Source: an uncultured Lachnospiraceae bacterium
Lineage (GTDB): Bacteria; Bacillota; Clostridia; Lachnospirales; Lachnospiraceae
Reading direction: 5' to 3'
DNA length: 39,901 bases
Assembly: GCA_900317825.1 (NCBI GenBank)
Contig: ONIH01000003.1
Span: 87,048-126,948, forward strand
In this document: in pieces, positions 33,455 to 35,659 of the stretch
Layout: each line of letters begins with the position of its first letter
How positions within the stretch are numbered: position 1 is the first letter of the stretch
Program-made: the position numbers and the translations under genes
Notes under the pieces: model-generated
The model's input: the letters and a program-made list of their open reading frames with translations, nothing else
Databases searched by the model: none
What the model was told of the DNA's origin: nothing

Positions 33455-33570
33455 CCTTTGCGGGGAATTGTCGCTATTGTGCAGAAAACTCAACCTACTG
33501 TTTATAATTGTTTATTTTTAGTTTATAAAGATAAACAAAAAATAAATTTTCGAAAATAAAAATTAAATCA

Positions 33571-33595
33571 TACCGTTTTCTATTGGCAAACGGTA
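33571..33595. promoter_or_regulatory. Operator-like inverted repeat over the kinase-gene -35
   Basis: TACCGTTT (33571-33578) and AAACGGTA (33588-33595) are perfect 8-base arms with a 9-base spacer. The repeat overlaps the -35 box at 33583-33588, a position typical of a repressor operator. No regulator is assigned. Confidence 0.55.
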
Positions 33596-33611
33596 AAAAA
33601 GGGAGTATAAA
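33583..33611 (+). promoter_or_regulatory. Promoter of the kinase/ParA-like operon
   Basis: TTGGCA (33583-33588), a 17-bp spacer and TATAAA (33606-33611). It would give a short leader before the ribosome site at about 33637. Confidence 0.7.
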
Positions 33612-33647
33612 GGAATTAATAAGAAAGCCAACGGAAAGGAGAGAGCC

Positions 33648-34895
33648 ATAAAAGAAAAGGCAGAATACAGACCGGTATCAATGCTCCATCATTCGGAGAG
33701 CATGGATGTCATCTTAGCCGAGCATACCGGCCTAAAAGAACTAAGGGTATTAAAGAGAATAGAAAAGGGGACGAAAGCTCAGTACGGGAACGCAGCGTTC
33801 CAGCTTCACAGGGAAGCAGAGATACTTACAGGTCTCAGAGCACCAGGCATTCCACTCATTTATGATTTTTGGGAAGATGAAAAAGAAATCTGTCTCATAG
33901 AGGAATATGTCCAGGGACTGTCACTTAAGGAGTACCTGCTGAGGAACGACAGAGTGGATTTCAGGTTCGTCATGGATATACTTATCCGGATCCTTGATAT
34001 CATGGTATATCTTCACGGAATGAATCCGCCTGTCAGACACCAGGACTTAAAGACTGAGCATGTGATCCTTCAGAAGGAAAGAGTGATCCTGATAGATTAT
34101 GGAATAGCTGCTTTTCTGCGCGGAGAGCCAGAGAGACTCGGAACTGACGATATCCAGGCACTGGGTTCGATGGCGGAAGAGCTGGCTGAACACTGTTCTA
34201 CTTATATTCCATCCTGGTTTAAAAGGTCGCTTCGAAAGGCAAACGCCAGGGACGATTCAGCCAGATACATATCTGCAGCCGAGTGGAGAGATTTTCTGAT
34301 AAAGCAGGAGGCAGCAGAAAAGGACAAAAGGGGGCTTCTTATTAAAAAAATTGCCGTAGTAGGGAACGAAAGGGGAATCGGGACTACTCACGTCGCATTC
34401 AGTATCACCACTTATTTAAACTACACAGGAAGAAACGCCTGCTACCAGAATATGACCGGACGGCCGTTTCTGATCAGGATGAATGAAAATCTGAGCACGG
34501 ATTTTTACGAGAAGAACGGACTCATATACCACAGGTGGTTTCGAGGGAAACCAGATTACGGTCCGGCGGTAGAGGCAGAACAGACGGAAAGAGAAGTGGC
34601 GGTGTGCGACTGTGGAACAGATTTTTCAAAGGCAGATGATGCGGATCTGACCATTTATGTCACAGGCAGCAGGCCGTGGCAGAGCAGACAGCTGATGGAG
34701 GAGATGCTGGAGAAGGATAGCACGGTCCTTATGATCACTCCGGCAAATCCGGGAATGGCTGTAGCACTGGCGAGATCAGCGGGACACAGGGTGGTCAGCC
34801 TGCCCTATGAGACGAATCCCCTGCATCCGGACAGGAAGGTTATGAAAGTATATGAAGGGATTTTTAAAAAGTTCGAAGAAAAGGGACGTATTTAA
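33648..34895 (+). CDS. Ser/Thr kinase-like domain fused to a ParA/MinD-like domain
   Basis: About 415 residues if started at ATA 33648. AAGGAGAG stands just before this ATA, while ATG 33681 has no ribosome site and would cut off the start of the kinase fold (YRPVSML). The kinase part (numbering from ATG 33681) keeps Lys25 (VLKRI), Glu45 (HREAEIL), HQDLK (120-124) and DYG (139-141). The catalytic-loop Asn is His127, no glycine-rich loop is evident and the activation segment is short. Residues about 222-400 resemble a ParA/MinD domain, with IAVVGNERGIGTTHVAFSI in place of a canonical KGGxGKT loop. Kinase plus CpaE/ParA-like genes occur in Tad-pilus loci, but none of the pilus genes is here. Function unknown. 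Confidence 0.75.
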   Translation: MKEKAEYRPVSMLHHSESMDVILAEHTGLKELRVLKRIEKGTKAQYGNAAFQLHREAEILTGLRAPGIPLIYDFWEDEKEICLIEEYVQGLSLKEYLLRNDRVDFRFVMDILIRILDIMVYLHGMNPPVRHQDLKTEHVILQKERVILIDYGIAAFLRGEPERLGTDDIQALGSMAEELAEHCSTYIPSWFKRSLRKANARDDSARYISAAEWRDFLIKQEAAEKDKRGLLIKKIAVVGNERGIGTTHVAFSITTYLNYTGRNACYQNMTGRPFLIRMNENLSTDFYEKNGLIYHRWFRGKPDYGPAVEAEQTEREVAVCDCGTDFSKADDADLTIYVTGSRPWQSRQLMEEMLEKDSTVLMITPANPGMAVALARSAGHRVVSLPYETNPLHPDRKVMKVYEGIFKKFEEKGRI

Positions 34896-35481
34896 AAAGA
34901 CGGTCTGCTATGGACTCATATCAGCGACAGAGAAGTACGATATCATGTCTGCATCGATAGCGCTGGCGAACTATTTTGCGTCAGCGAAGGGATACCGGAC
35001 GGCTCTGGTCATAGCGGAAGAGGACAGTGCGGTACTTCATATGCTTTCCGAAAAGAAATGTGTGGATGTGGAACCGGTTGGCTATGCGGATGAATACCTG
35101 ACATACTATTGTGTCAGCGGAGCCGGAGAACTGAAGAGACTAAAAGACAGATCCTTCGAGAGATTAGTCGTCGAGACTGAAGCATCGCATCTGGACGATG
35201 ACCTGCTCAGGGAGATAGACGCGCTCAGGATCTTTGCGGATCTGTCACCGTGGCGTTATCAGGATCTGAGAAAATGTTACAGAAATACGTTCTGTTCATT
35301 GGGATTTCATAATACTGGAGAGCAGAGGCTGGGGAGAAACCTGTATACAATGAGCATGAGACAAAACGACATGGAAAGGTTTAAAAAGGAATTCGGCGCC
35401 AACGTCATAGAAACCGGTTATTTCAAGGACCCATACAGGCTAGGGAAAACAGACCTGATGCAGGTCGAAAGGATTCTGTAA
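34852..35481 (+). CDS. Degenerate ParA/MinD-like protein
   Basis: A 209-residue protein overlapping the preceding gene by 44 bases. The N-terminal segment VCYGLISATEKYDIMSASIALANYFASAKGYRTALVIAEED follows the pattern of a ParA/MinD first strand-loop-helix. The Walker A lysine and threonine are missing, so ATP hydrolysis is doubtful. The rest, including FERLVVETEAS and ALRIFADLSPWRYQDL, fits alternating strands and helices. It looks like a truncated, diverged partner of the ParA-like part of the upstream fusion. No better start than ATG 34852 was found; the ribosome site is weak. Confidence 0.65.
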   Translation: MKGFLKSSKKRDVFKKTVCYGLISATEKYDIMSASIALANYFASAKGYRTALVIAEEDSAVLHMLSEKKCVDVEPVGYADEYLTYYCVSGAGELKRLKDRSFERLVVETEASHLDDDLLREIDALRIFADLSPWRYQDLRKCYRNTFCSLGFHNTGEQRLGRNLYTMSMRQNDMERFKKEFGANVIETGYFKDPYRLGKTDLMQVERIL

Positions 35482-35627
35482 AAAGAAAGGAGGTAACGGA
35501 AACCTATATAGACTCATGACCGGCCATGATAATTCGTAGAGATATCTGTACTGCTAAAGGCCGGGATTTAATGAAAGACATCAGAGCTCCGTGGAACTGG
35601 GAAAGTATGTAAACGGGGCTCTTTTTT
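35482..35627 (+). ncRNA. Structured RNA segment with regulated-looking terminator
   Basis: AGAGCTCCGT (35583-35592) pairs with ACGGGGCTCT (35613-35622) to form an intrinsic terminator with six T. The same TCCGT (35588-35592) can instead pair with ACGGA (35496-35500), which would disrupt the terminator. Between them, TCATG-ACCGGC-CATGA (35514-35529) is a hairpin whose loop can pair with GCCGG at 35560-35564, giving a pseudoknot. This looks like a riboswitch-style attenuator but fits no class that I recognise. A 13-codon frame (MKDIRAPWNWESM, 35571-35612) spans the terminator 5' arm. The next gene also has its own promoter after the terminator, so the element may instead act at the 3' end of the kinase operon. 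Confidence 0.5.
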
Positions 35628-35630
35628 CAG

Positions 35631-35659
35631 TTGTTAAAAAATGGAGATTGGTTTATAAT
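35631..35659 (+). promoter_or_regulatory. Promoter of the GH18 operon
   Basis: TTGTTA (35631-35636), a 17-bp spacer and TATAAT (35654-35659), directly after the terminator T-run. It would start the GH18-sua5-comEB transcript. Confidence 0.75.

Follow-up and report, generated by a model that had tools for sequence, protein, structure and literature searches.

Type IVc (Tad) pilus systems contain an organising protein, TadZ or CpaE, in which a receiver-like domain is joined to a ParA-like domain with a deviant nucleotide loop. In Caulobacter, a model places dimers of CpaE about the base of CpaF, the motor (PMC13170226). Tad systems spread over several loci are described as very rare (PMC6668835), and a 2011 survey reports tad-like loci with tadA, tadZ and rcpC, and no prepilin signal, in some Clostridia (PMC3244431). 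Here, we describe a two-gene unit that covalently links a Hanks-type kinase to ParA-like proteins of this pilus-organising kind, at a locus apart from Tad genes. The unit lies in a 39,901-nucleotide stretch of DNA, the window, which covers positions 87048-126948 of contig ONIH01000003.1 (assembly GCA_900317825.1; G000:C16:87048-126948) from an uncultured Lachnospiraceae bacterium with a genome of 1.94 Mb in 53 contigs; the closest named records in the scan, by gene 1, are the uncultured Lachnospiraceae SUG1620 and RUG170, at 80% identity each. A literature search that covered few subscription papers returned no description of the kinase-ParA fusion or of the operon. We propose, with a probability of roughly one half, that this kinase/ParA pair serves to control a Tad-like machine from a detached locus.

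Genes 1 and 2 form a real two-gene unit, encoding a kinase-ParA fusion and a second ParA-like protein, with the start of gene 2 overlapping the 3' end of gene 1 (34852 against 34895). An earlier note, made from the letters of this DNA alone, had described the fusion as carrying HQD and DYG motifs, a His in place of the catalytic-loop Asn and an altered nucleotide loop, and had described gene 2 as ParA-like without Walker A residues. Both descriptions were borne out, the first by a Pfam Pkinase match of 1.7e-17 and by the motifs HQDLKTEH, DYG and GNERGIGTTH, the second by SATEKYDI at the loop and by ParA-type similarity of the family profile. Beyond that note, we find a deletion in the kinase activation segment and homology between gene 2 and the C-terminal domain of gene 1. 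The features on which the argument rests are as follows.

33681-34895, plus strand: gene 1, 404 residues from ATG 33681, Hanks-type Ser/Thr kinase domain followed by a ParA-like domain (Pfam Pkinase)
34038-34061, plus strand: catalytic loop HQDLKTEH, with the Asp retained (as in 70 of 70 relatives) and His in place of the usual Asn
34095-34151, plus strand: activation segment, DYG to the next conserved Asp, 19 residues, GTxxYxAPE stretch gone (alignment)
34335-34892, plus strand: ParA-like C-terminal domain of gene 1 (profile A5)
34362-34391, plus strand: lysine-free P-loop GNERGIGTTH of gene 1 (comparison of 70 relatives)
34852-35481, plus strand: gene 2, 209 residues, ParA-like, a paralogue of the C-terminal domain of gene 1, with SATEKYDIMS at the loop (profile A8 against ParA 3k9g)

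The unit shares with TadZ and CpaE the ParA-like domain with a deviant loop, and departs from them in three respects: gene 1 has a kinase where the receiver-like domain would stand, there are two paralogues, the ParA-like domain covering gene 2, and the locus lies apart from Tad. Moreover, a TadZ-type protein is present, besides the unit, in the Tad locus of the window's genome. The family was surveyed in 250 genomes, one per genus; 64 match a six-row profile and 71 a 42-row profile. Seventy-eight loci were fetched, and 70 have the fusion, representing 58 different genera (window included) and 12 further members of the window's genus; the other eight, without a fusion of the required form, were left out. 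Two apparently split or shortened copies, L087 and L112, are outside the 70 loci yet are counted among the 60 unit genomes of the co-occurrence tests described below.

The kinase domain of gene 1 has the catalytic Lys, alpha-C Glu, HxD Asp and DFG Asp of Hanks-type kinases. Among the relatives, both Asp residues are present in 70 of 70, and the Lys and Glu in every sequence that could be aligned at these positions (68 of 68 and 69 of 69). The usual Asn of the catalytic loop is Asn in 43 relatives and His in 27, and the Asn-to-His exchange was rejected as the sign of a dead kinase on this count. The activation segment measures 15-20 residues in seven of the 70 relatives, every one of them in the window's genus; a segment ending in APE is absent from the window and from six other species of that genus. 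The remaining 63 comprise 51 that fit the GT..PE pattern and 12 that span 37-44 residues. The fold is common to the Hanks-type kinases with PASTA repeats (PrkC/Stk1/StkP), and StkP is among the Protein Data Bank (PDB) matches, whereas no PASTA or membrane part is seen in gene 1. The window's genome also encodes a separate kinase with PASTA-like repeats adjoining a PP2C-like gene, as labelled from their sequences.

At the position of the Walker A lysine that characterises ParA/MinD ATPases, the P-loop of the 70 gene 1 relatives has Thr (39), Val (16), Ala (8), Cys (6) or Asn (1), and never lysine; a His two positions further on is kept in 64. Since the lysine is missing from all 70, the altered loop is a hallmark of the family and not a defect of the window copy. 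Comparison by hhalign of the family profiles of the gene 1 C-terminal domain (A5, 42 rows) and gene 2 (A8, 43 rows) gave 99.8% probability and an E-value of 8e-30 over nearly the full length, with CpaF and TadC profiles as negative controls at 0.5% and 0.1%; by this comparison the two are paralogues. ParA similarity was undetectable when either window protein was searched alone, and Pfam gave no match for gene 2 or for the window copy of the gene 1 C-terminal domain. Among 42 relatives of that domain, five matched Pfam CbiA (ParA/MinD), at best with 0.0014. The gene 2 profile matched a solved ParA protein, PF-32 (3k9g), at 7.5e-4 over the whole sequence, no single stretch passing alone, and matched SRP54 at 0.0057 and Soj and BcsQ more weakly; the profile of the gene 1 C-terminal domain found weak PDB matches only. 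A fold of the ParA/SRP class is likely, on better evidence for gene 2, and profile searches, the check to which the earlier note had tied its ParA assignment, do show ParA-type similarity, chiefly for the gene 2 profile. In four loci of other Clostridia (L228, L234, L235 and L236), a lysine-free ParA-like domain occurs with a different N-terminal part, and no Tad profile matched there.

All 13 genomes of the window's genus, its own counted, carry the gene 1 fusion. In the seven with a short activation segment, the loop residues of gene 2 are gone as well; the remaining six retain the activation segment, and the loop of their gene 2 is nearer to the family loop without being identical to it. 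Compared with the three closest species (G254, G258 and G250), the ratio of nonsynonymous to synonymous substitution rates (dN/dS) of gene 1 is 0.12-0.18, at dS of 0.7 to 1.4. That of gene 2 is 0.17 and 0.24 for two of these species, the third being saturated at synonymous sites. By these ratios gene 1 is under purifying selection, and its values led us to reject decay of the operon; no stop codon occurs inside gene 1 in any of the seven subclade species.

Throughout the family the unit is found at one chromosomal site in most genera, and a mobile cassette was rejected on this ground. The mecA gene lies within two open reading frames (ORFs) upstream in 51 of the 58 genera, divergently in 50 and in the same direction in one; three of the remaining seven loci are cut by a contig end and four have no mecA. 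Downstream, a GH18 gene is present in 54 of the 58 loci. A gene 2 relative is called after gene 1 in 61 of the 70 loci (49 of 58 across genera), and in 15 of 58 family loci gene 2 is followed by a gene for a SAF-domain protein. No SAF gene was recognised in the window, nor in the 12 further loci of its genus, where flanks are short, reaching about 1.5 kb past gene 1 or less. Among 20 hand-picked family genomes without the fusion, mecA and GH18 are adjacent in 18, with only ORFs of less than 150 residues between them, the other two being cut by contig ends; the adjacency of mecA and GH18 is thus independent of the fusion. Genomes with and without the unit at this otherwise unchanged site offer one natural comparison, and the subclade that has lost the activation segment and the partner loop together offers another. 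As a separate observation, nine of the 20 fusion-less genomes (L192-L199, L211) have mecA-GH18-Sua5 followed, after a few genes, by a Tad locus.

About 100 kb from the unit, on the contig that carries it, lies the Tad locus of the window's genome. The ten proteins scanned there are two A24 peptidases, a CpaF-type T2SSE ATPase, two T2SSF proteins that we take to be TadB and TadC, a DUF5702 protein whose Tad match is below threshold, a DUF6382-FHA protein, which is the sole DUF6382 match of the genome, and three proteins with no useful match. None of the ten is a kinase or a SAF protein. The TadZ-type profile of the protein preceding CpaF matches 3fkq at 2e-17, a structure that we take to be TadZ of Eubacterium rectale and that is itself listed as an NtrC-like two-domain protein. 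In the window, no ORF scored above 40 bits with profiles of CpaF, TadB, TadC, TadG, DUF6382 or TadZ.

Outside the family, the fusion was found beside genes of this kind. A class-level scan gave matches in 36 of 341 genomes, of which 33 do not belong to the family. From these 33, a set of 19, hand-chosen mainly by score, was fetched, together with one family member. In nine of the 19, from two other families, genes for a SAF protein and a CpaF-like ATPase (598-654 residues) come after the fusion; three have a kinase-less ParA-like gene near a CpaF-like gene of 484-487 residues; and seven show other contexts. The family SAF profile matches the SAF proteins of the nine embedded loci with E-values of 2e-21 to 4e-73, and their ATPases match the Tad CpaF profile at 98.2% and 2.7e-14. 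Two of these loci, L226 and L227, also have a TadZ-like gene and a CpaF gene of 421-423 residues a few genes upstream. We take the SAF domain, found after gene 2 in the family and after the fusion in the embedded loci, to link these proteins to CpaB/RcpC, the Tad pilus alignment protein. An unrooted tree of 79 fusions separates the embedded copies from the rest at a single branch, with support of 100/100, a topology compatible with one change of location. The tad-like loci of the 2011 survey may be of the same kind as these embedded loci. A further locus in the window's own family, L115 (G039), encodes an 896-residue protein that ends in the same ParA-like domain and adjoins a SAF gene and a 628-residue CpaF-like gene.

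If the unit does serve a Tad machine, its ParA-like domain in gene 1 would pair with gene 2, by analogy with the pairing of CpaE/TadZ with itself, and the pair would dock on the TadZ/CpaF base of the genome's own machine some 100 kb away, so that the kinase would be delivered there. Where relatives have the activation segment in full, the kinase would phosphorylate threonines to be read by an FHA protein; the likeliest reader is the DUF6382-FHA protein encoded in the Tad locus. Because the activation segment and the gene 2 loop have been lost, the window's subclade suggests that docking has been kept and that phosphorylation has been reduced or altered. The most specific form of this proposal is that a lysine-free ParA heterodimer with a kinase acts as a phosphorylation switch steering a remote Tad machine, one lineage having a docking-only, AUA-started copy without activation segment and partner loop; taken as a whole, this form is rather unlikely. 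A widespread detached control unit, if true, would call for a different way of searching gut Clostridia for Tad systems, since scattered Tad systems are described as very rare.

Co-occurrence within the family bears on the proposal from both sides. For these tests 60 unit genomes were used, that is, the 71 with a match minus 11 (three fetched and found without a kinase domain, and eight weak or unusual and not fetched). An FHA match (at 1e-8) occurs in 59 of the 60 unit genomes and in 144 of 190 others (p 1.6e-5), or in 69 of 71 and 134 of 179 with all match genomes kept (p 9.5e-6), in a one-way test that counted any FHA domain and was uncorrected for relatedness. The one exception, G063, is also without a DUF6382 match and is 89% complete. 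CpaF is present in 243 and DUF6382 in 242 of the 250 genomes. As DUF6382 is missing from four of the 60 unit genomes, the FHA partner need not be a DUF6382 protein everywhere.

Besides these limits of the FHA test, several results weigh against a role in a Tad machine. Matches to CpaF are missing from three of 60 unit genomes and four of 190 others (p 0.36), and matches to DUF6382 from four of 60 and four of 190 (p 0.10), so that these counts lean slightly the opposite way; the assemblies concerned are 60 to 95% complete. With CpaF in 243 of 250 genomes and the unit in 64 to 71, Tad does not need the unit. In none of the 70 family loci did the fetched flanks score more than 40 bits with the six Tad profiles used on the window (at least 8 kb on both sides in 34 of the 58 loci from different genera and shorter in the rest, about 1.5 kb or less in the 12 from the window's genus). 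Within these flanks the unit is not embedded in a Tad locus in this family, so homologues are not always found in a complete Tad locus, the condition under which the earlier note would have failed. The TadZ profile aligns weakly with that of gene 2 (64%) and scarcely with that of the gene 1 C-terminal domain (21%), and SAF exceeds the Pfam cut-off in two of five family proteins scanned. The embedded loci of other families are divergent: their large membrane protein gave no match to TadC, neither the ATPase nor the SAF protein of L227 reaches the Pfam cut-off, and three of ten genomes with such loci have Pfam Tad (PF13400). Finally, the window's own kinase may be inactive.

These results raise the question of what else the unit might do. 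An independent signalling module, long ago recruited from a Tad-like locus and now serving another process, possibly with mecA or GH18, is a less probable alternative. In its favour are the usual neighbourhood of mecA and GH18, the absence of Tad neighbours, and the presence of the unit in about a quarter of genomes when CpaF is nearly universal and is missing from three unit genomes. The same two neighbours stand together without the fusion in the fusion-less genomes, however, GH18 seems to have its own promoter in the window, and a SAF gene has been kept in 15 loci. Of the earlier note's independently regulated signalling module, the separate locus without Tad neighbours stands, whereas independence from Tad is made doubtful by the nine embedded loci, the SAF genes and the Tad locus on the same contig.

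That the unit is a decaying relic in the window's lineage, a pseudokinase with a dead ParA, is improbable. The joint loss of activation segment and gene 2 loop, the possible AUA start codon and the unrecognised SAF gene are what such decay might leave; the low dN/dS of gene 1 and, in two species, of gene 2, the retention of the Lys, Glu and both Asp, and the stop-free frame of all seven species speak against it. Least probable of all is that the kinase serves a DUF6382-FHA protein of another system resembling variants e and f of the type VII secretion system (T7SS). Both T7SSe and T7SSf include DUF6382-FHA proteins among their components, and a kinase is part of T7SSe too (PMC11217815). Kinase and DUF6382-FHA protein occur within one genome there as they do here. 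The T7SSe kinase, unlike the unit, is in the same gene cluster and is described there as membrane-bound, and the single DUF6382 match of the window's genome belongs to the Tad locus. Against these alternatives, a detached control unit of a Tad-like machine remains the reading that we prefer.

The sequences that flank the two genes contain the following predicted expression signals.

33571-33595, no strand: inverted repeat TACCGTTT / AAACGGTA over the -35 hexamer, operator-like (repeat search)
33583-33611, plus strand: putative operon promoter TTGGCA-17-TATAAA (read from the sequence)
33635-33650, plus strand: ribosome-binding site AAAGGAGAG, then ATA as a possible gene 1 start (subclade comparison)
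35482-35627, plus strand: 3' RNA, conserved core with stem CCGGCC/GGCCGG, followed by a terminator-like hairpin with T run (fold, comparison)
35631-35659, plus strand: putative promoter of the downstream GH18 gene, TTGTTA-17-TATAAT (promoter scan)

Both hexamers of the operon promoter are invariant in the three closest species, and the dedicated promoter read by the earlier note is probable; it was not listed by the promoter scan because the scan rule demands T as the last base. The inverted repeat that had been taken for an operator exists, but the three closest species do not preserve its arms, and an operator at this position was rejected. An AT-rich palindrome is also present at 33508-33538, between the divergent mecA and gene 1; in G258 both arms are changed and, read by eye, seemingly still pair.

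Translation of gene 1 may start at AUA 33648. The frame is open upstream of ATG 33681 as far as this codon, and AAAGGAGAG or AAAGGAGAGG with an in-frame ATA is found in all seven subclade species (same-genus loci L120-L125 and the window). The sister species G256, G261 and G260 have ATG behind a similar ribosome-binding site, one relative reads ACG and another GTG at position 33681, and both changes between ATA and GTA in the three closest species are synonymous.

The structured 3' RNA of the earlier note stands in part: stem, hairpin and T run are partly conserved in close relatives, but folding exceeds that of shuffled sequences only modestly (z -1.97, 7 of 200 shuffles as good). Its core, AGATA.CTG.ACTG or close to it (TGAAAGACA), is recognisable in the four closest species, and a known Rfam RNA was rejected when a search of 35482-35627 gave no match. 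Looser resemblances occur after gene 2 in more distant members of the genus. The GH18 promoter beyond it was seen in two of three relatives, the aligned stretch of the third having ended before this point.

A small conserved gene is present in 27 of the 58 loci. In L060, L074, L089 and others, a small protein, mostly of 60-130 residues and containing ..YMxDYV..LKEIRFDKV.., is encoded between gene 2 and GH18; the four copies scanned had no Pfam match above cut-off, and the protein also precedes GH18 in some genomes without the fusion.

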